From Salminus brasiliensis (lineage: Eukaryota; Chordata; Actinopteri; Characiformes; Bryconidae): a DNA stretch of 64,000 nucleotides. Under the pieces are notes generated by a model, which was not told where the DNA came from, did no database searches, and saw nothing but the letters and a program-made list of their open reading frames with translations. The DNA lies in the NCBI RefSeq assembly GCF_030463535.1, contig NC_132897.1, forward strand, positions 7,026,821-7,090,820, in the 5' to 3' direction. The position numbers and the translations under genes are program-made. Shown one piece after another: positions 5,336-23,545 of the stretch (the stretch's first letter is position 1; every line of letters starts with the position of its first letter).

Positions 5336-7522
5336 TCAAAACAATCTCATACGTAGAACTGCATTTTGCATTTTCATTTGTAGGTGTATAAATCTCGTAA
5401 GATGGGGCGTATCCTAGCAGTGGACCGTCTGTGTCTGGGTGTCCGTCCTGGGGAGTGTTTTGGGCTGCTGGGCGTCAACGGGGCAGGAAAGACCACCACC
5501 TTCAAAATGCTGACTGGAGACGAAAGCACCACAGGAGGGGAGGCCTTTATCGGAGGACACAGGTATGGAGACGTCACCAAACAGCCATGATATATGGAGT
5601 CAAAGGTTTACTCTCACTTTCTCTCTTTACCCTCGCTCTTTACTCTCTCTTAATTCTCACTTTCTCTCTTTACCCTCGCTCTTTACTCTCTCTTAATTCT
5701 CACTTTCTCTCTTTACCCTCGCTCTTTACTCTCTCTTAATTCTCACTTTCTCTCTTTACCCTCGCTCTTTACTCTCTCTTAATTCTCACTTTCTCTCTTT
5801 ACCCTCGCTCTTTACTCTCTCTTAATTCTCACTTTCTCTCTTTACCCTCGCTTTTTACTCTCTTGCTTTCTCTTTTTACTCTCACTTTCTCTCTTAACTT
5901 TTTTTACTCTCACTTTCTCTCTTTACTCTTTTTACTCTCACTTTACTCTCACTTTCTCTCTTAACTTTTTTTACTCTCACTTTACTCTCACTTTCTCTCT
6001 TAACTTTTTTTACTCTCACTTTCTCTCTTTACTCTTTTTACTCTCACTTTACTCTCACTTTCTCTCAACTTTTTTTACTCTCACTTTCTCTCTTAACTCT
6101 TTTTACTCTCACTTTCTCTCTTTACTCTTTTTACTCTCACTTTACTCTCACTTTCTCTCTTAACTTTTTTTACTCTTACTTTCTCTCTTTACTCTTTTTA
6201 CTCTCACTTTCTCTCTTTACTCTTTTTACTTTTACTTTCTCTCTTTACTCTTTTTACTCTCACTTTCTCTCTTTACTCTTTTTACTTTTACTTTCTCTCT
6301 TTACTCTTTTTACTCTCACTTTCTCTCTTTACTCTTTTTACTTTTACTTTCTCTCTTTACTCTTTTTACTCTCACTTTCTCTCTTTACTCTTTTTACTTT
6401 TACTTTCTCTCTTTACTCTTTTTACTCTCACTTTCTCTCTTTACTCTTTTTACTCTCACTTTCTCTCTTTACTCTTTTTACTCTCACTTTACTCTCACTT
6501 TCTCTCTTTACTCTTTTTACTCTCACTTTCTCTCTTTACTCTTTTTACTCTCACTTTACTCTCACTTTCTCTCTTTACTCTCTATTTTACTTTCTTTTTA
6601 CTCTCACTTTCTCTCTTTACTCTTTTTACTTTTACTTTCTCTCTTTACTCTTTTTACTCTCACTTTCTCTTTACTCTTTTTACTCTCACTTTCTCTTTAC
6701 TCTTTTTACTCTCACTTTACTCTCACTTTCTCTCTTTACTCTTTTTACTCTCACTTTCTCTCTTTACTCTTTTTACTCTCACTTTCCCTCTTTACTCTTT
6801 TTACTCTCACTTTCTCTCTTAACTTTTTTTACTCTCACTTTCTCTCTTTACTCTTTTTACTCTCACTTTCTCTCTTAACTTTTATTACTCTCACTTTCTC
6901 TCTTTACTCTTTTTACTCTCACTTTCTCTCTTTTCTCTTTTTACTCTCACTTTACTCTCACTTTCTCTCTTTACTCTTTTTACTCTCACTTTACTCTCAC
7001 TTTCTCTCTTTACTCTTTTTACTCTCACTTTCTCTCTTTACTCTTTTTACTCTCACTTTACTCTCACTTTCTCTCTTTACTCTTTTTACTCTCACTTTCT
7101 CTCTTTACTCTTTTTACTCTCACTTTACTCTCACTTTCTCTCTTTACTCTCTATTTTACTTTCTCTTTACTCTCACTTTCTCTCTTGCTTTCTTTCTTTA
7201 CATTTTCTTTACTCTCACTTTCTGTCTTTATTATTCTTACTCTCACTCTCACTCTTGCTTTCTCTCTTTTCTCCCACTTTCTCTGTTGCTTTCTTTCTTT
7301 ACTCTCACTTTCTTTATTACTTTCTCTTTACCCTCTTTACCTCTCACTTTCTTGCTTTCTCTCCTTCTCTCTCTCTAGTATCCTGAGGGAGTTGCTGCGG
7401 GTGCAGCAGAGTATTGGCTACTGTCCTCAGTTTGATGCTCTTTTTGAAGATCTGACAGCGCGAGAGCACCTGGAGCTATACACACGCCTCCGGGGTATAC
7501 CGTGGAAGGATGAGGAGCGGGT

Positions 7523-10969: not shown

Positions 10970-13175
10970 AGCAGCGACAAATGTGACCGAGAGAAAAGTG
11001 ACAAACTAAGCCTCAAGTAAAGATTTCAGCCTGACCAGTGAGAGACATTCCTGAGCTACATCATCTGCGGAAAAGGTCCACCCACCTGGCCTTCCATAGA
11101 GATGGCCAGTTTTTCTAGTTTTGCACTGCAACAGCGGACCTAGCATAGAGCCCTGCTGAACACCGCTGGTACATAGGCGTGTTTCAGTGGAAGGCACGGA
11201 TGGACAGTGCCCGGGAATTAGACTGAACTGATTTGGAGCACATGGATAAGACTCTGAGAAAGCCCTGGGTGTATGGCCTGCGCACTGCTATGAACCTTTG
11301 AATCGTGAATCGTGTTCTTATTTCAGATTGAAGCCTGCTGGATGGGATTACTAGAGAATGTATTTGTTGAATGGAAACACATGGTCAGATTTGGGGTTTT
11401 TATTTTTGACATTAAAGAAAAAGGACCCTGGAAAAGATCCTGAAATTAATTACATGTTCATGCTGTTCTGAACTAGTGCTTTACAGCGGTTGATGTCATG
11501 AGATAACATATCATCCTGATAAGGTATGACCATTTTTTTGGGGTTCGGCCTTTGTATCATATGTTATTTTTATGACAGGTTCTTATTCGTTATATGTAAC
11601 TACATGTCATTTCTTTTTGTAAAGTTGGACCTAATCTCCGTTAATACGTCAAACCTGCCTTGAGAGCATGCTATAGAGTCAAGCCTGTGGTATGTCCTAT
11701 ATTTTTTGTCTGTAGGTGGAAGAATGATTTATTTTCCCTACTGAGATGTTTTTTGAAGATATATATAAATATATATGTGTGTGTGTGTGATATTTTGAAT
11801 CGTTAAAAGAATGCTGGCGTACAAATGCACCTTTACGGGAGGCGAGCGAGCTTAGACACAAGACATTGACTTGAGATGATTATGCTAATATGGCCTTTAG
11901 TAATCCAGTTGGTCAGAAGCCACCCCGACACTGAGGACACCACGATATCACGTCGGGAATGTAAATTGCATGAACATATATTTTGCACATTGGTGCCTCC
12001 CGAACCTTGTTTCTGTTTTCCTCTTTAAAGGAGCATTATGTGAGAATTGGCTTTTTTTTTTGCTCTTGGGCTCCCCTTACAATTGAGGAGCGTAATTCAC
12101 TTTTACACCACTGCCGTAAATACACATCGCAATATGAGCACCCCCTCGTGAACAGCTGTACACGTGCATTTGTTGACAAGCTGAGAGAACTGTGAAAGAA
12201 GCATGTAATCTAAGGCTGTAAAGTAATCTTACGGGATTTACAAAAATATGACTTGCAGCGTTTCACAGTTCTAGCGAGAGGTCTTGATCACGCTCTACCA
12301 AAGTTTCGTAGTGCAGTAGCAGCGCAGTCTGGCCTGGAGTGGCAATGACAGAGACCCCATTCTCCTTATTACAGACGGTGGAGCATCAACATGATTCTGA
12401 AACTGATATTTGCTACATAATGTTGCTTTAATGGATAAACAGAACACTTTCTATACAGACTCCTTTAAGTTGGACTTGGGTTGTTCAGACAGTGTAGTTC
12501 TGGGCTGCATACACTTGTGTTTCCTCACTTTTAGGCAACGTGTTTTTAAAAAAAAAACAAAAAAAACAAACAGCGAACGGCATCGGGCCGATGCAAACTC
12601 CTGTGTCAGATGTCAATGTACAGTAAATGTTTGGAAATAACTGTTTCTCCATCACTGTGAAGCCAAAGGTGAACTTTTGATTCACTGTTAAAAAACAACA
12701 ATAGATTTCAGGACCTTATCAGGAGCTTACAGGTTTAATTTCTGGCGTTTTGTTTTGGAAGCCCATATAGAATGTGTCTGTGCTTATTTTGATCATTTTC
12801 TTTCCTGTAATTAATTTTTTCTGTAATTAAATTTACTGTAATGTGTCCTAAAAAGTAAAAAAAAAAAACTTTCCCTCTAATGGTTTGAAATAATTTGAAT
12901 TGATGTCCAGGATTGTATTTGCTGTAAGTTCTACCTGATCTGTGCTATCACGTGTTGACAGTCTTCAACTCTGTCCGTCCAGTGTGTGGCTCATTCAGTG
13001 CTTTTGATTGTAGCTAACAATGATGGTTTATGTTCTTCAGACGTGAGATGGAGAGATCTCATCGTTTCTGAACACGATGCTGTCTATTTCTTGAGCATTT
13101 GGAGAGGCATCCAGCTGCAGCTTCTCTAGACGAAGCCTCTGGTTGGGCTGGGTGGAAGTAATTCTTTAAAATAAA
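10970..13175 (+). other. abca2: abca2 3' UTR and downstream flank
   Basis: Non-coding sequence after the abca2 stop. Possible polyadenylation signals on the plus strand are ATTAAA at 11411, ATTAAA at 12826 and AATAAA at 13170; sequence alone does not show which is used. If the distal signals are used, the transcript would include the interspersed repeat at 12027-12432. Reading frames in this stretch have no recognisable homology. Confidence 0.55.
12027..12432 (+). repeat. interspersed repeat family R1
   Basis: Starts with 'gagcattatgtgagaattgg' and contains 'tgttgacaagctgagagaa' and 'catcaacatgattctg'. The same words occur in the same order at 59585-59825, and an inverse-oriented part lies at about 60270-60480. 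Class unknown; no coding capacity or clear terminal repeats were seen. Confidence 0.7.
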
Positions 13176-13240
13176 AGCTCCAGGCAGAAAACACTGCAGA
13201 GCTAGACCATTTGATCTTATTTTAATAATTACTAAGACAC

Positions 13241-13547
13241 ATAAAGGATAAAAGGATAAAGGTGCACGTATTCGTCACTGTACAGTGTGGACTGTACAGC
13301 GAAATGTGTCCTCCGCATTTAACCCATCTGGTAGTGAACACACACTCACACACACACACGTGTTAGGGGCAGTGAGTACACACACACACCCAGAGCGGTG
13401 GGCAGCCAACTCCAGCGCCCGGGGAGCAGAGAGGGTAAAGGGCCTTGCTCAAGGGCCCAACAGTGGCAGCTTGCCGAGCCCGGGAATCGAACCCACAACC
13501 CTGTTATCGATATCCCGGCGCTCTAACCGCTGAGCCACCACTGCCCC
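13241..13547 (-). mobile_element. tRNA-derived SINE (reverse copy)
   Basis: Read on the minus strand it begins with a tRNA-like head. Box A (tggctcagcgg) is at 13537-13527 and box B (ggttcgattcc) at 13493-13483. These are followed by a body shared with the copy at 37190-37472 and a short tail of 'ttatcc' words. The pol III boxes are intact. The body includes a CA/GT microsatellite. The head resembles a tRNA only in its boxes and does not fold into a full cloverleaf that I can see, so it is not a tRNA gene. Confidence 0.85.
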
Positions 13548-13548
13548 T

Positions 13549-13568
13549 ATGATACACATGTATCATAG
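13549..13568. repeat. short perfect hairpin next to the SINE
   Basis: tatgatac and gtatcata form an 8-bp stem around the loop acat, immediately beyond the head of the SINE. It may be pre-existing target sequence; no function is implied. Confidence 0.6.
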
Positions 13569-13689
13569 GGAGCCTCTTAAAGGACTAAATTTACATTTAC
13601 ATTAAAGGCCTTTCGCCGACGCTCTTATCCAAAATGACTTACAAAAGTGCATCACTGTTTCCTCAGAAAATACCTTTAGCTAGTTTAAC

Positions 13690-13920
13690 TTTCTGCCCTC
13701 AATTTCTTCAATTTAATAAATCGTTCCCTCAGATTAAATAAAGCGTCCTCTTTAAACTGAAGGAATGATGTAAATGATTAAACTGAGAAAACGATTTATT
13801 CACTTGAGGGAACAGATTATTAAATCTAGGAAATTATTTATTAAATCAAGGGAACAATTTATTAAATTGAAAGAACAGATTGTTAAATTGAGGAAAACAA
13901 TTTATTAAATATTTTAATTT
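13690..13920. repeat. AT-rich inverted array of a ~22-bp motif
   Basis: The motif 'aatttaataaatcgttccct' occurs in one orientation on the left. Its reverse complement, 'agggaacaatttattaaat' with variants, occurs several times on the right. The arrangement is a diverged tandem repeat with a polarity switch near 13770. Confidence 0.65.
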
Positions 13921-14188
13921 TGTTTTATGTTTTTAATTAACACTTTTCTGCCTTCATACTTGATAAGGGTTCCCTAATAATACATGTATTGGTGCAGGTT
14001 GCTGATTTATTGTTAATCTTTAAAGTAAATTCATAATTTATTTAAATCAACAATAAATTTAAGGTTTAAACAAATAATAATTTTAAAACCTTCATTAAAA
14101 GCCTTTTTAGATTAAAGAAAATATTTTAAAATTAAAATAACATTAACCTAAACATACATAAGATTCTGGCAAACCGGTCTGCCCTGCT

Positions 14189-17100
14189 AACTGTAGCTGC
14201 TGTATTGCTGGGGTGCGAGGCTGTAATTAGCTAGCTAGCTAACTGTAGCTGCTGTATTGCTGGGGTGCGAGGCTGTAATTAGCTAGCTAGCTAACTGTAG
14301 CTGCTGTATTGCTGGGGTGTGAGGCTGTAATTAGCTAGCTAGCTAACTGTAGCTGCTGTATTGCTGGGGTGTGAGGCTGTAATTAGCTAGCTAGCTAACT
14401 GTAGCTGCTGTATTGCTGGGGTGCGAGGCTGTAATTAGCTAGCTAGCTAACTGTAGCTGCTGTATTGCTGGGGTGCGAGGCTGTAATTAGCTAGCTAGCT
14501 AACTGTAGCTGCTGTATTGCTGGGGTGTGAGGCTGTAATTAGCTAGCTAGCTAACTGTAGCTGCTGTATTGCTGGGGTGCGAGGCTGTAATTAGCTAGCT
14601 AGCTAACTGTAGCTGCTGTATTGCTGGGGTGCGAGGCTGTAATTAGCTAGCTAGCTAACTGTAGCTGCTGTATTGCTGGGGTGCGAGGCTGTAATTAGCT
14701 AGCTAGCTAACTGTAGCTGCTGTATTGCTGGGGTGCGAGGCTGTAATTAGCTAGCTAGCTAACTGTAGCTGCTGTATTGCTGGGGTGCGAGGCTGTAATT
14801 AGCTAGCTAGCTAACTGTAGCTGCTGTATTGCTGGGGTGCGAGGCTGTAATTAGCTAGCTAGCTAACTGTAGCTGCTGTATTGCTGGGGTGTGAGGCTGT
14901 AATTAGCTAGCTAGCTAACTGTAGCTGCTGTATTGCTGGGGTGCGAGGCTGTAATTAGCTAGCTAGCTAACTGTAGCTGCTGTATTGCTGGGGTGCGAGG
15001 CTGTAATTAGCTAGCTAGCTAACTGTAGCTGCTGTATTGCTGGGGTGCGAGGCTGTAATTAGCTAGCTAGCTAACTGTAGCTGCTGTATTGCTGGGGTGT
15101 GAGGCTGTAATTAGCTAGCTAGCTAACTGTAGCTGCTGTATTGCTGGGGTGTGAGGCTGTAATTAGCTAGCTAGCTAACTGTAGCTGCTGTATTGCTGGG
15201 GTGCGAGGCTGTAATTAGCTAGCTAGCTAACTGTAGCTGCTGTATTGCTGGGGTGTGAGGCTGTAATTAGCTAGCTAGCTAACTGTAGCTGCTGTATTGC
15301 TGGGGTGTGAGGCTGTAATTAGCTAGCTAGCTAACTGTAGCTGCTGTATTGCTGGGGTGTGAGGCTGTAATTAGCTAGCTAGCTAACTGTAGCTGCTGTA
15401 TTGCTGGGGTGCGAGGCTGTAATTAGCTAGCTAGCTAACTGTAGCTGCTGTATTGCTGGGGTGTGAGGCTGTAATTAGCTAGCTAGCTAACTGTAGCTGC
15501 TGTATTGCTGGGGTGCGAGGCTGTAATTAGCTAGCTAGCTAACTGTAGCTGCTGTATTGCTGGGGTGCGAGGCTGTAATTAGCTAGCTAGCTAACTGTAG
15601 CTGCTGTATTGCTGGGGTATGAGGCTGTAATTAGCTAGCTAGCTAACTGTAGCTGCTGTATTGCTGGGGTGTGAGGCTGTAATTAGCTAGCTAGCTAACT
15701 GTAGCTGCTGTATTACTGGGGTGTGAGGCTGTAATTAGCTAGCTAGCTAACTGTAGCTGCTGTATTACTGGGGTGTGAGGCTGTAATTAGCTAGCTAGCT
15801 AACTGTAGCTGCTGTATTGCTGGGGCGTGAGGCTGTAATTAGCTAGCTAGCTAACTGTAGCTGCTGTATTGCTGGGGTGCGAGGCTGTAATTAGCTAGCT
15901 AGCTAACTGTAGCTGCTGTATTGCTGGGGTGCGAGGCTGTAATTAGCTAGCTAGCTAACTGTAGCTGCTGTATTGCTGGGGTGCGAGGCTGTAATTAGCT
16001 AGCTAGCTAACTGTAGCTGCTGTATTGCTGGGGTATGAGGCTGTAATTAGCTAGCTAGCTTACTGTAGCTGCTGTATTGCTGGGGTGCGAGGCTGTAATT
16101 AGCTAGCTAGCTAACTGTAGCTGCTGTATTGCTGGGGTGCGAGGCTGTAATTAGCTAGCTAGCTAACTGTAGCTGCTGTATTGCTGGGGTGTGAGGCTGT
16201 AATTAGCTAGCTAGCTAACTGTAGCTGCTGTATTGCTGGGGTGCGAGGCTGTAATTAGCTAGCTAGCTAACTGTAGCTGCTGTATTGCTGGGGTGCGAGG
16301 CTGTAATTAGCTAGCTAGCTAACTGTAGCTGCTGTATTGCTGGGGTATGAGGCTGTAATTAGCTAGCTAGCTAACTGTAGCTGCTGTATTGCTGGGGTGT
16401 GAGGCTGTAATTAGCTAGCTAGCTAACTGTAGCTGCTGTATTACTGGGGTGTGAGGCTGTAATTAGCTAGCTAGCTAACTGTAGCTGCTGTATTACTGGG
16501 GTGTGAGGCTGTAATTAGCTAGCTAGCTAACTGTAGCTGCTGTATTGCTGGGGCGTGAGGCTGTAATTAGCTAGCTAGCTAACTGTAGCTGCTGTATTGC
16601 TGGGGTGCGAGGCTGTAATTAGCTAGCTAGCTAACTGTAGCTGCTGTATTGCTGGGGTGCGAGGCTGTAATTAGCTAGCTAGCTAACTGTAGCTGCTGTA
16701 TTGCTGGGGTGCGAGGCTGTAATTAGCTAGCTAGCTAACTGTAGCTGCTGTATTGCTGGGGTATGAGGCTGTAATTAGCTAGCTAGCTTACTGTAGCTGC
16801 TGTATTGCTGGGGTATGAGGCTGTAATTAGCTAGCTAGCTAACTGTAGCTGCTGTATTGCTGGGGTGCGAGGCTGTAATTAGCTAGCTAGCTAACTGTAG
16901 CTGCTGTATTGCTGGGGTGCGAGGCTGTAATTAGCTAGCTAGCTAACTGTAGCTGCTGTATTGCTGGGGTATGAGGCTGTAATTAGCTAGCTAGCTTACT
17001 GTAGCTGCTGTATTGCTGGGGTATGAGGCTGTAATTAGCTAGCTAGCTAACTGTAGCTGCTGTATTGCTGGGGTGTGAGGCTGTAATTAGCTAGCTAGCT

Positions 17101-20100
17101 AACTGTAGCTGCTGTATTGCTGGGGTGTGAGGCTGTAATTAGCTAGCTAGCTAACTGTAGCTGCTGTATTGCTGGGGTGTGAGGCTGTAATTAGCTAGCT
17201 AGCTAACTGTAGCTGCTGTATTGCTGGGGTGCGAGGCTGTAATTAGCTAGCTAGCTAACTGTAGCTGCTGTATTGCTGGGGTGTGAGGCTGTAATTAGCT
17301 AGCTAGCTAACTGTAGCTGCTGTATTGCTGGGGTGCGAGGCTGTAATTAGCTAGCTAGCTAACTGTAGCTGCTGTATTGCTGGGGTGCGAGGCTGTAATT
17401 AGCTAGCTAGCTAACTGTAGCTGCTGTATTGCTGGGGTGTGAGGCTGTAATTAGCTAGCTAGCTAACTGTAGCTGCTGTATTGCTGGGGTGTGAGGCTGT
17501 AATTAGCTAGCTAGCTAACTGTAGCTGCTGTATTGCTGTGGTGTGAGGCTGTAATTAGCTAGCTAGCTAACTGTAGCTGCTGTATTGCTGTGGTGTGAGG
17601 CTGTAATTAGCTAGCTAGCTAACTGTAGCTGCTGTATTGCTGGGGTGTGAGGCTGTAATTAGCTAGCTAGCTAACTGTAGCTGCTGTATTGCTGGGGTGC
17701 GAGGCTGTAATTAGCTAGCTAGCTAACTGTAGCTGCTGTATTGCTGGGGTGCGAGGCTGTAATTAGCTAGCTAGCTAACTGTAGCTGCTGTATTGCTGGG
17801 GTATGAGGCTGTAATTAGCTAGCTAGCTAACTGTAGCTGCTGTATTGCTGGGGTGTGAGGCTGTAATTAGCTAGCTAGCTAACTGTAGCTGCTGTATTAC
17901 TGGGGTGTGAGGCTGTAATTAGCTAGCTAGCTAACTGTAGCTGCTGTATTACTGGGGTGTGAGGCTGTAATTAGCTAGCTAGCTAACTGTAGCTGCTGTA
18001 TTGCTGGGGCGTGAGGCTGTAATTAGCTAGCTAGCTAACTGTAGCTGCTGTATTGCTGGGGTGCGAGGCTGTAATTAGCTAGCTAGCTAACTGTAGCTGC
18101 TGTATTGCTGGGGTGCGAGGCTGTAATTAGCTAGCTAGCTAACTGTAGCTGCTGTATTGCTGGGGTGCGAGGCTGTAATTAGCTAGCTAGCTAACTGTAG
18201 CTGCTGTATTGCTGGGGTATGAGGCTGTAATTAGCTAGCTAGCTTACTGTAGCTGCTGTATTGCTGGGGTATGAGGCTGTAATTAGCTAGCTAGCTAACT
18301 GTAGCTGCTGTATTGCTGGGGTGTGAGGCTGTAATTAGCTAGCTAGCTAACTGTAGCTGCTGTATTGCTGGGGTGTGAGGCTGTAATTAGCTAGCTAGCT
18401 AACTGTAGCTGCTGTATTGCTGGGGTGTGAGGCTGTAATTAGCTAGCTAGCTAACTGTAGCTGCTGTATTGCTGGGGTGCGAGGCTGTAATTAGCTAGCT
18501 AGCTAACTGTAGCTGCTGTATTGCTGGGGTGTGAGGCTGTAATTAGCTAGCTAGCTAACTGTAGCTGCTGTATTGCTGGGGTGTGAGGCTGTAATTAGCT
18601 AGCTAGCTAACTGTAGCTGCTGTATTGCTGGGGTGCGAGGCTGTAATTAGCTAGCTAGCTAACTGTAGCTGCTGTATTGCTGGGGTGTGAGGCTGTAATT
18701 AGCTAGCTAGCTAACTGTAGCTGCTGTATTGCTGGGGTGTGAGGCTGTAATTAGCTAGCTAGCTAACTGTAGCTGCTGTATTGCTGGGGTGTGAGGCTGT
18801 AATTAGCTAGCTAGCTAACTGTAGCTGCTGTATTGCTGGGGTGCGAGGCTGTAATTAGCTAGCTAGCTAACTGTAGCTGCTGTATTGCTGGGGTGTGAGG
18901 CTGTAATTAGCTAGCTAGCTAACTGTAGCTGCTGTATTGCTGGGGTGCGAGGCTGTAATTAGCTAGCTAGCTAACTGTAGCTGCTGTATTGCTGGGGTGC
19001 GAGGCTGTAATTAGCTAGCTAGCTAACTGTAGCTGCTGTATTGCTGGGGTATGAGGCTGTAATTAGCTAGCTAGCTAACTGTAGCTGCTGTATTGCTGGG
19101 GTGTGAGGCTGTAATTAGCTAGCTAGCTAACTGTAGCTGCTGTATTACTGGGGTGTGAGGCTGTAATTAGCTAGCTAGCTAACTGTAGCTGCTGTATTAC
19201 TGGGGTGTGAGGCTGTAATTAGCTAGCTAGCTAACTGTAGCTGCTGTATTGCTGGGGCGTGAGGCTGTAATTAGCTAGCTAGCTAACTGTAGCTGCTGTA
19301 TTGCTGGGGTGCGAGGCTGTAATTAGCTAGCTAGCTAACTGTAGCTGCTGTATTGCTGGGGTGCGAGGCTGTAATTAGCTAGCTAGCTAACTGTAGCTGC
19401 TGTATTGCTGGGGTGCGAGGCTGTAATTAGCTAGCTAGCTAACTGTAGCTGCTGTATTGCTGGGGTATGAGGCTGTAATTAGCTAGCTAGCTTACTGTAG
19501 CTGCTGTATTGCTGGGGTATGAGGCTGTAATTAGCTAGCTAGCTAACTGTAGCTGCTGTATTGCTGGGGTGCGAGGCTGTAATTAGCTAGCTAGCTAACT
19601 GTAGCTGCTGTATTGCTGGGGTGCGAGGCTGTAATTAGCTAGCTAGCTAACTGTAGCTGCTGTATTGCTGGGGTATGAGGCTGTAATTAGCTAGCTAGCT
19701 TACTGTAGCTGCTGTATTGCTGGGGTATGAGGCTGTAATTAGCTAGCTAGCTAACTGTAGCTGCTGTATTGCTGGGGTGTGAGGCTGTAATTAGCTAGCT
19801 AGCTAACTGTAGCTGCTGTATTGCTGGGGTGTGAGGCTGTAATTAGCTAGCTAGCTAACTGTAGCTGCTGTATTGCTGGGGTGTGAGGCTGTAATTAGCT
19901 AGCTAGCTAACTGTAGCTGCTGTATTGCTGGGGTGCGAGGCTGTAATTAGCTAGCTAGCTAACTGTAGCTGCTGTATTGCTGGGGTGTGAGGCTGTAATT
20001 AGCTAGCTAGCTAACTGTAGCTGCTGTATTGCTGGGGTGCGAGGCTGTAATTAGCTAGCTAGCTAACTGTAGCTGCTGTATTGCTGGGGTGCGAGGCTGT

Positions 20101-21548
20101 AATTAGCTAGCTAGCTAACTGTAGCTGCTGTATTGCTGGGGTGTGAGGCTGTAATTAGCTAGCTAGCTAACTGTAGCTGCTGTATTGCTGGGGTGTGAGG
20201 CTGTAATTAGCTAGCTAGCTAACTGTAGCTGCTGTATTGCTGTGGTGTGAGGCTGTAATTAGCTAGCTAGCTAACTGTAGCTGCTGTATTGCTGTGGTGT
20301 GAGGCTGTAATTAGCTAGCTAGCTAACTGTAGCTGCTGTATTGCTGGGGTGTGAGGCTGTAATTAGCTAGCTAGCTAACTGTAGCTGCTGTATTGCTGGG
20401 GTGCGAGGCTGTAATTAGCTAGCTAGCTAACTGTAGCTGCTGTATTGCTGGGGTGCGAGGCTGTAATTAGCTAGCTAGCTAACTGTAGCTGCTGTATTGC
20501 TGGGGTATGAGGCTGTAATTAGCTAGCTAGCTAACTGTAGCTGCTGTATTGCTGGGGTGTGAGGCTGTAATTAGCTAGCTAGCTAACTGTAGCTGCTGTA
20601 TTACTGGGGTGTGAGGCTGTAATTAGCTAGCTAGCTAACTGTAGCTGCTGTATTACTGGGGTGTGAGGCTGTAATTAGCTAGCTAGCTAACTGTAGCTGC
20701 TGTATTGCTGGGGCGTGAGGCTGTAATTAGCTAGCTAGCTAACTGTAGCTGCTGTATTGCTGGGGTGCGAGGCTGTAATTAGCTAGCTAGCTAACTGTAG
20801 CTGCTGTATTGCTGGGGTGCGAGGCTGTAATTAGCTAGCTAGCTAACTGTAGCTGCTGTATTGCTGGGGTGCGAGGCTGTAATTAGCTAGCTAGCTAACT
20901 GTAGCTGCTGTATTGCTGGGGTATGAGGCTGTAATTAGCTAGCTAGCTTACTGTAGCTGCTGTATTGCTGGGGTATGAGGCTGTAATTAGCTAGCTAGCT
21001 AACTGTAGCTGCTGTATTGCTGGGGTGTGAGGCTGTAATTAGCTAGCTAGCTAACTGTAGCTGCTGTATTGCTGGGGTGTGAGGCTGTAATTAGCTAGCT
21101 AGCTAACTGTAGCTGCTGTATTGCTGGGGTGTGAGGCTGTAATTAGCTAGCTAGCTAACTGTAGCTGCTGTATTGCTGGGGTGCGAGGCTGTAATTAGCT
21201 AGCTAGCTAACTGTAGCTGCTGTATTGCTGGGGTGTGAGGCTGTAATTAGCTAGCTAGCTAACTGTAGCTGCTGTATTGCTGGGGTGTGAGGCTGTAATT
21301 AGCTAGCTAGCTAACTGTAGCTGCTGTATTGCTGGGGTGCGAGGCTGTAATTAGCTAGCTAGCTAACTGTAGCTGCTGTATTGCTGGGGTGTGAGGCTGT
21401 AATTAGCTAGCTAGCTAACTGTAGCTGCTGTATTGCTGGGGTGTGAGGCTGTAATTAGCTAGCTAGCTAACTGTAGCTGCTGTATTGCTGGGGTGTGAGG
21501 CTGTAATTAGCTAGCTAGCTAACTGTAGCTGCTGTATTGCTGGGGTAT
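14189..21548. repeat. 52-bp minisatellite, 141 full units plus a 28-bp part unit
   Basis: The unit starts aactgtagctgctgtattgc and ends with agctagctagct. First and last unit starts (14189 and 21521) differ by exactly 141 x 52, so there is no net insertion or deletion. Units differ by single bases in a few classes: gtgcgag, gtgtgag, gtatgag, ttactgg, ggggcgtg, gctgtgg, and a leading t instead of a. Each unit carries the exact 16-bp palindrome ttagctagctagctaa, except where the t variant breaks its last bases. Stops occur in all frames and 52 is not a multiple of three, so it is non-coding. It lies between abca2 and the paxx 3' end. Confidence 0.98.
16321..21548. repeat. higher-order duplication within the minisatellite (2,704-bp period)
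   Basis: Writing each unit by its variant class, units 41-92 (16321-19024) match units 93-140 (19025-21520) class for class. Each copy is a 28-unit block followed by a 24-unit block, and the second copy stops after 20 units of its last block. All blocks open with the same marker order: gtatgag, gtgtgag, two ttactgg units, ggggcgtg, three gtgcgag, gtatgag. A shorter 14-unit version opens at unit 27 (15593). Confidence 0.85.
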
Positions 21549-22221
21549 TAGTTTGTCTATGGCTGTGATTTACAGAAAAGTTTCGTCTGCTAAGCTGCAG
21601 CTGGAAGCTACTGAGCACTTGATGAAGAAAGAAGCTGATGGAGATGAATGAAGGTGGCCCTAGAGCATTTTTTTTTTTCATGTGAAACGACCAAAGGGGA
21701 AATTAAGCATATTTTTAGACTAAATATGAATTAAACACTTAGATATTTCCTACTTAAAATCTTTCATTGTAAATAAGAGTCAGACGTTTAAATCCATTCA
21801 TTTAATCATCCTTCAGTAATGCAACTGGTGCAGGGTGCTGCTGCAACTTGCTCCCAACACCAGAACTAATAGGTGTTGATATTAGGGTCAAGGACACCAG
21901 CAAACAATGAGCTTGATTCCCTATCAGAGAAAAGTGCAATGCCTTGACTGCTGAACATCACTCCTGTAAGTGCATAGACATGGATATAGCTAGCCGTTTA
22001 TTTTCTTCATGTACTGAAGCTTCATTTGAGCCCCTGTTCACTCAAATAAATGTCCTTGTAAAAGACTGACTCGACTTTTGAGCTCGTTCTGATTATTATG
22101 TTTCCGTACTCTTGTGATGAGGTGTTCAGGTGTTTTTAATATGGAAAGAAAAGATAAAATAAAATTGTTGAATTGTGCTTTTCCGGAAATTTGTCCTTTA
22201 AAAGCCAGACAGCATGCACCA
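21549..22221. other. spacer after the minisatellite
   Basis: About 670 bp of ordinary AT-rich sequence. No gene, RNA or recognised repeat seen. Confidence 0.6.
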
Positions 22222-23545
22222 AAACATTAAAACCACTAGACTGGTCATGAGAAGTGAATAACTTTGCTTTCCTTGCTACAGTGGCGTTTGTCAGGGGCTG
22301 GACATATCAGGCAGCAAGTGAGCAGTCAGTTCTTGAAGGTGATGTGTTGGCAGCAGGAAAAATGGGCAAGTACAATATCAGCACATACTGGCACATACAC
22401 ACAGTATCGGTATCAGCACATACTGGCACACACACAGTATCGGCACATACTGGCACATACACACAGTATCGGTATCGGCACATTACTGGCACACACACAG
22501 TATCGGCACATACTGGCACATACACACAGTATCGGTATCGGCACATACTGGCACATACACACAGTATCGGTATCGGCACATACTGGCACATACACACAGT
22601 ATCGGCACATTACTGGCACATACACACTGTATCGGTATCGGCACATACTGGCACATACACACAGTATCGGCACATACTGGCACATACACACTGTATCGGT
22701 ATCGGCACATACTGGCACATACACACTGTATTGGTATCGGCACATACTAGTACATGCATGAATACCATGAAGCTTTCTGACACCAACCAAACATTTAAAC
22801 AACCAGTAAAAGCAGTCATAAATAGTTATTACCATAAAACAAACAGTCATTTAATGAAACTGTTACATTTACAGCGCTTTTTGTTCTGAAATCAAAGGTT
22901 GAGTTTCAGCAGCTCGTTTAAAGACTAACACACACTGCTGTCGTGTACCTGAATGTGAAATTGCTGCAGAAGCACTTTGTTTCTAAACTGGTGTTTTTTT
23001 TTCACTTCACAAAAATGTGAATTTTATCCAGTTAAAAGCTGTTTGGTGAAGCTTCGCCAGATTATTATTTCCCTACCTGCATGTGTTTCTGAATTGTGGC
23101 AATTTTCTTTTCACAGCTCTGAAACTTTTCACATGTGCAGTTCTTCAACCAGTAAACGCTGTTCTTTCAAGCTTATTAGATCTTATTAAAAAATACAACC
23201 TATATAAATTAAAACACTATAAAGATCATCGAGTCAGAGTTGGTATCGGTCTCGGTACTCCTTATTCCTATGTGCAAGCATAAGAATCTAAGCCACTCTG
23301 ACAAGCGCCTAATTGCTATGGCCAGATGACTGGGTCAGGACATCAGGAAGGTGTGTTCCCAGGAAGCAGTGGTCAGTGTGTACGAAAAGGACAAGAGAGG
23401 ACAACCAGAGAAACAACAACAGGTTTATGGACATGAGACCTCGTTCTAGGACAGGAGATCAGGACACCACAGGACACCACAGGACACCTTCAGAGCTCTG
23501 GCACAGTAAGTCTCACGGTCAGCCATAAAAATAAGCACAACGTCA
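22222..23545 (+). mobile_element. dead mariner/Tc1-like element, family T1, split by a minisatellite
   Basis: The left end (22222-22377) reads 'cagtggcgtttgtcagggg', 'aggcagcaagtgagcagtc' and 'ttcttgaaggtgatgtgttgg'. Its continuation (23283-23545) has 'gccactctgacaagcgcc', 'gcagtggtcagtgtgtac' and 'accacaggacaccttcagag'. These phrases also occur in order in the copy at 45290-45786, and some in 32570-32866 and 41440-41968. The transposase frame is destroyed by deletions and stops. The intervening part holds a local minisatellite and about 500 bp of unrelated sequence. Confidence 0.75.
22378..22747. repeat. 35-bp/29-bp minisatellite nested in the transposon
   Basis: About a dozen copies of 'gcacatactggcacatacac' followed by acagtatcgg, with or without a doubled tatcgg, giving 35- and 29-bp versions. 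It is open in frames on both strands, which creates long cysteine/tyrosine- or histidine/threonine-rich frames of no coding value. Confidence 0.92.

Follow-up and report, generated by a model that had tools for sequence, protein, structure and literature searches.

A homogeneous 52-bp minisatellite of Salminus brasiliensis, probably the internal repeat of an old DNA transposon expanded locally by block duplication

Genes and repeats at the locus

The window – the whole 64,000-nucleotide stretch of contig NC_132897.1 of Salminus brasiliensis that was analysed – carries an ABC-transporter gene in its upstream part, with an ABC2_membrane_3 domain at 4.0–4.8 kb and a sub-threshold ABC_tran match at 8.3–8.5 kb. 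Downstream lie PAXX (24.95–25.27 kb, minus strand), the gene for mitochondrial ribosomal protein L41 (34.7–35.2 kb, minus strand) and cNMP-binding and patatin domains, an order that probably resembles that of human 9q34.3 (ABCA2, PAXX, MRPL41, PNPLA7). The repeats of the window would fit an otophysan fish. The element that is the subject of this study sits between the ABC-transporter gene and PAXX; its parts are listed in Table 1.

The window holds other tandem repeats. A second minisatellite (5765–7256), pyrimidine-rich on the plus strand and within the region of the ABC-transporter gene, has periods of 28, 56 and 84 bp with 79–80% matches and 9–13% indels, and is thus heterogeneous, unlike the 52-bp array; GC skew at 6–8 kb of the window is -0.57. 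A third tandem array (22372–22755; 35/164-bp period, TATCGGCACATACTGGCACATACACACAG type) lies about 0.8 kb past the right end of the putative transposon described below.

Table 1. Features of the 52-bp array, of the element around it and of SINE-like repeats near its units (window positions unless a locus is named).
Feature	Position	Strand	Remarks
Left target-site duplication copy, presumed, 8 bp	13094..13101	.	AGCATTTG; abuts left terminal repeat
Left terminal inverted repeat	13102..13148	+	Scored over 13107-13148; best in window, score 65
Younger insertion, presumably SINE-like	13241..13547	-	95.6% identical to L014:2234-2551; relatives in L020 and L021
AT-rich interior of putative transposon	13996..14050	+	80% identical to L041:1473-1527 (55 bp; E 1.4e-7)
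Shared left-edge sequence	14151..14183	+	Score 38 vs shuffle maximum 27 (250 shuffles); 3 bp off array
52-bp tandem array	14186..21546	+	141 full units plus 29-bp partial; TRF and unit-by-unit cutting
52-unit block (2,704 bp), first copy	16110..18813	+	Identical to 18814-21517
52-unit block, second copy	18814..21517	+	Extends to right end of full units
Degenerate unit at the edge, with shared right-edge sequence	21547..21581	+	By eye nearer family consensus than array core; edge score 24, below shuffle maximum 27 (weak)
Right terminal inverted repeat	21582..21613	-	Score 52; 24/28 aligned columns identical to left repeat
Right target-site duplication copy, presumed	21614..21621	.	AGCACTTG; 7/8 identical to 13094-13101
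Presumed SINE-like repeat copies near units	L014:2234-2551; L020:1570-1713; L021:2546-2781; window 13241-13547		

An array of 141 units of one length

The 52-bp minisatellite is confirmed as a real feature of the assembly. A tandem-repeat finder and a unit-by-unit comparison, both run on the assembled sequence, gave the array as the original prediction had described it, that is, 141 units at a constant spacing of 52 bp: TRF reported a period of 52, 141.6 copies, 98% matches and 0% indels, and when the units were cut out one by one all 141 full units measured exactly 52 bp. Only the boundaries moved, by 2–3 bases, from 14189..21548 to 14186–21546. The 142nd unit start, at 21518, falls 141 x 52 bases after the first and opens the partial unit.

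That point variants alone separate the units also held. Six sites vary (unit positions 4, 22, 26, 29, 30 and 31), all by substitution and none by an indel, and the 141 units fall into eight types represented 56, 47, 12, 10, 6, 5, 4 and 1 times. No substitution is private to any of the 141 units: the single-copy type (H) recombines existing variants, joining the position-4 variant of type E to the position-30/31 state of type A. Such a combination is as expected of a crossover within one unit, whereas recurrent mutation would need two changes. Five of the six variable sites are clustered in 10 bp (unit positions 22–31; P = 0.011 by simulation); at positions 29–31 CpG, TpG and TpA states are involved.

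Block duplications within the array

The striking feature of the array is block copying, not constant length. Units 37–88 (numbered from 0) are identical to units 89–140, and the exact match runs for 2,754 bp at an offset of 2,704 (16089–18842 = 18793–21546), reaching the right end of the array. In the string of unit types the longest non-overlapping repeat spans 52 units, compared to at most 12 in 300 shuffles. A shorter block of 13 units occurs at unit indices 38, 66, 90 and 118, its first 12 units recur at index 24, and the first 23 units of the array comprise the two commonest types only. These are exact multi-unit duplications, in register. The absence of any difference between the 2,704-bp copies places a bound of roughly 55,000–280,000 generations on the age of the last duplication, given assumed mutation rates of 1e-8 to 2e-9 and with gene conversion ignored. 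Among nine arrays examined, exact repeats longer than 1 kb are found only here and in C2a, an array elsewhere in the genome that contains an exact 1,182-bp repeat at an offset of 1,340.

We infer that the block duplications were caused by unequal exchange, either between sister arrays or between homologous ones; gene conversion may instead have been responsible. An unlikely alternative is that extrachromosomal circles derived from the array were copied by a rolling-circle mechanism and then reintegrated: a circle reinserted into the array would likewise leave an exact tandem copy of 52 units. However, no circle-specific trace was found, and the other arrays of the family (see below) are diverged, with variants of their own, so that circles from the window array did not recently seed the 24 other loci.

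A different concern is that the 52-unit perfect duplication, or even the whole length of the array, is an artefact of assembly, produced by a repeat-graph path walked twice or by the joining of haplotypes. Consensus smoothing or a doubled path would also be expected to yield two 2,704-bp copies without a difference and units without private substitutions. Nevertheless, the array sits on a chromosome-sized contig (34.0 Mb), smaller block repeats with different neighbours are nested within it, and the block repeat of C2a has another length and is exact for 1,182 of the 1,340 bp of its offset; an artefact is for these reasons improbable.

If block copying is what shaped the array, what of the missing indels? 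The original prediction had proposed recent amplification of multi-unit blocks, and the 52-unit perfect duplication and the recurring 13-unit blocks bear this out; the reason offered for it – substitution without slippage – proved weak. In nine related arrays of at least nine units (from which units outside 38–66 bp were first dropped, lowering the indel count) there are 293 distinct substitution variants vs. 109 distinct indel variants. Because variants are copied together with blocks, the substitutions recorded in the window array may go back to only six events; given the proportion of indels in the nine related arrays, the probability of observing no indel is 0.15, 0.11 and 0.08 for six, seven and eight events, respectively. 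With six sites varying, the number of mutations must have been very small, and zero indels are unremarkable. No indel was counted among the 17 units of the related array C17 either, although they contain 37 distinct substitutions. The constant length of the array is thus attributable to youth and in-register copying rather than to a special bar on slippage.

A dispersed family of diverged units

A 312-bp query retrieved diverged versions of the unit from the same assembly (1.07 Gb) at no fewer than 24 further loci, the smallest with about 1.5 units and the largest with arrays of kilobases. Membership in this dispersed and apparently transposon-borne family was absent from the original prediction. 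Unit length is mostly 44–60 bp across loci and 52 bp in most, as in the family consensus, and over the 25 loci the units span 72 to 7,361 bp, such that few-unit copies exist alongside long arrays. Long arrays are more homogeneous than short ones: distinct substitutions number 6 in the 141 units of the window, 20 in 80 units (C2a) and 8 in 85 units (C19a), and seven arrays of 9–32 units have 23 to 54 each. Seventy unit types, taken from 18 loci, gave a poorly resolved tree (52 columns); in it the five window units group together (96/78), while several other arrays fail to form one group each.

No stop-to-stop reading frame of at least 90 codons exists within the array and no Rfam family reaches its gathering score in the window. 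A coding or RNA role was rejected on these grounds, and function is unnecessary to explain the array. A hairpin-driven role was likewise rejected, the single-strand fold of two units being no better than that of shuffles (z = 0.49), as was a link to phages, among which the 312-bp stretch has no near match; an exact 17-mer shared with viral contigs at three stretches was taken as chance. The sequence strings of the unit were not found in the literature searched. That selection keeps the array, for example as a cluster of binding sites for neighboring genes, would accord with the recurrence of the palindrome TTAGCTAGCTAGCTAA in the family consensus, but recent copying accounts for the homogeneity, the fold of two units is unexceptional and many other copies of the family have decayed: we consider selection very unlikely.

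Terminal inverted repeats near the units of about half of the loci

Comparison of flanks revealed that array edges at different loci have sequence in common. An edge sequence drawn from the patterns of L035 and L019 reached a score of 34 or more on eight flank sides out of 50 (the two source loci are among the eight and are not independent), in all eight cases no further than 23 bp from the array and always in the same orientation; the maximum from 250 shuffles was 27 and reverse-complement scores did not exceed 24.5. For L035 the end of the array was chosen manually, at the remnant of a unit (position 1620), the last scored unit ending at 1298. Flank-vs-flank alignments scored as high as 87, compared with at most 39.5 after shuffling; simple repeats account for some of the alignments listed. 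The right flank of L035, used as a query, matched ten places, seven of them at new loci. By eye, decayed 52-bp units adjoin the flank at four of the seven (L036, L037, L040 and L042) and perhaps one decayed unit does so at L038; no clear unit was seen by eye at the flank edge in L039 or L041. In both L041 and L035 the right end recurs upstream in inverted form, and from this the terminal inverted repeats were recognised.

The distribution of these repeats was determined with a 71-base consensus, obtained from an alignment and built in part from loci that were later scanned, over the 25 loci (119.7 kb), which had been chosen by their units alone. Matches were found at 13 of 25 loci, with both ends present at three; no terminal repeat was detected at the remaining 12 at the threshold used. 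Every upstream match (6/6) is in the left orientation, 227–1,038 bp from the units, and every downstream match (9/9) is in the right orientation, 10–78 bp from the units (measured for L035 from the hand-placed end): all 15 flanking matches thus have the expected orientation. One further match lies between two blocks of L009, and all matches in the 119.7 kb scanned fall within 1.2 kb of units. As controls, the remaining 55 kb of the window scored at most 33 and shuffled loci at most 29.

Within the window the two best matches in the whole 64 kb (13107–13148 and 21582–21613) bracket the array, the best score outside the element being 33. Extension of the left repeat to the consensus end adds 13102–13106, giving an element of 13102–21613. 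The chance of a match of at least 7/8 for one pair of target duplications is about 0.0004. At the other two-ended loci the corresponding 8-bp sequences agree at 4/8 (L019), 4/8 (L035) and 2/8 positions (the rearranged L041), so that among four two-ended loci only the window appears to have a convincing target duplication; the identification of a transposon therefore rests mainly on the terminal repeats. Elements of the hAT type have short terminal repeats of CAG..CTG type. Right ends of the present family often read ...CTACTG; left ends vary (CAGAGG, GAGAGG, AAGAGG and others). The putative transposon may be described as hAT-like, on the strength of a single 8-bp target duplication.

A young, presumably SINE-like repeat occurs inside or within 0.7 kb of 52-bp units at four of the 25 loci, the window included. 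As the carrier of the units it was rejected, because its copies retain about 88–96% identity from locus to locus while the units there differ far more strongly, and because it interrupts the units in L014 and L021. At L041 the left end together with about 117 bp of outside flank is repeated, inverted, at the right side (1209–1394 and 1734–1901), which suggests that this locus may be a rearranged or foldback copy of the element.

If the units were instead a free satellite family, with no transposon, then the common edges would be due to chance or to independent insertions into one target repeat. The 12 loci lacking a terminal repeat, and the edge sequence at L039 and L041 where no clear unit adjoins it, are compatible with this. 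What makes it quite improbable is the uniform orientation of the 15 flanking matches, the fact that left interiors are also common to loci, and the window itself, with both ends and a 7/8 target duplication.

Origin and growth of the array

Taken together, at least 24 diverged unit loci, the adjoining terminal repeats and the 7/8 target duplication make a transposon-internal repeat the most likely source. The array is probably a tandem repeat from inside an old DNA transposon, non-autonomous and with terminal inverted repeats, that was expanded locally by multi-unit block duplication. According to this hypothesis a transposon family would, presumably long ago, have scattered a few 52-bp units to many sites – a step supported by the common terminal repeats and flanks – and the units would then have decayed at many of them. 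The array in the window, and to a lesser extent several others, would have been lengthened by in-register duplication of multi-unit blocks, the last visible step in the window being the duplication of 52 units at once. In-register block copying would leave the unit at 52 bp and spread a few point variants through the array.

Classical (centromeric or heterochromatic) satellites form very long heterochromatic arrays; the present array, by contrast, measures 7.4 kb and is found in a gene-bearing region 7.0 Mb from a contig end. An origin from transposon-internal repeats with subsequent block copying is a type already known, and its traces here are unusually clear. A young, homogeneous minisatellite is in all probability tied to a fossil transposon with both ends still readable. 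In PMC4079207, Tetris of Drosophila virilis is described as a non-autonomous foldback transposon whose internal tandem repeats also form the TIR-220 satellite. Both cases concern an inverted-repeat DNA transposon with internal repeats that exist also as kilobase-size, more homogeneous arrays, and the 8–10 bp target duplications of Tetris are similar to the presumed 8-bp duplication here. However, the Tetris unit is about 220 bp and lies inside the terminal repeats, whereas the 52-bp unit lies between the interior and the right terminal repeat, and the genomes are unrelated. The Xstir and miDNA4 MITEs of Xenopus, as presented in PMC12628747 and PMC9659126, likewise carry internal sequence as a single monomer or as an array; miDNA4 belongs to Tc1/mariner, whereas the one good target duplication of the present family is 8 bp long, a hAT-like length, and the likeness is one of structure as described. 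The table rows examined in PMC7599744 and PMC9659126 name no hAT source for minisatellites or satellites.

A further parallel comes from a frog minisatellite, also of 52 bp, that according to PMC10794172 derives from a SINE/tRNA-V and expands in distal, recombination-rich regions, the expansion being attributed to recombination. There too the 52-bp sequence that expands comes from a dispersed element; unlike here, the parent is a SINE and the arrays are subtelomeric, and this likeness again is one of structure as described (PMC10794172). The equal unit length is probably chance.

The 25 sister loci, of differing size in one genome, provide a natural series for array growth, and raise the question of what makes a long array out of a few internal repeats, the candidates being position, unit sequence and chance. 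One answer, which we put forward tentatively and think rather doubtful, is that the 52-bp unit, with its perfect 16-bp palindrome, is a portable module prone to expansion, which the transposon scattered and which flares independently and repeatedly into kilobase arrays where recombination is high; if true, one old element family would be a nursery of new minisatellites. That longer spans lie nearer contig ends is a weak fit with recombination-driven growth: over the 25 loci, span decreases as the distance from the closer end of the contig grows (Spearman -0.48, P = 0.016), and the trend is weaker when position is expressed as a fraction of the contig (Spearman -0.38, P = 0.063). All eight spans of at least 1.4 kb (a cut-off chosen post hoc) are within 7.1 Mb of a contig end, and of these eight largest spans that of the window is the least distal.
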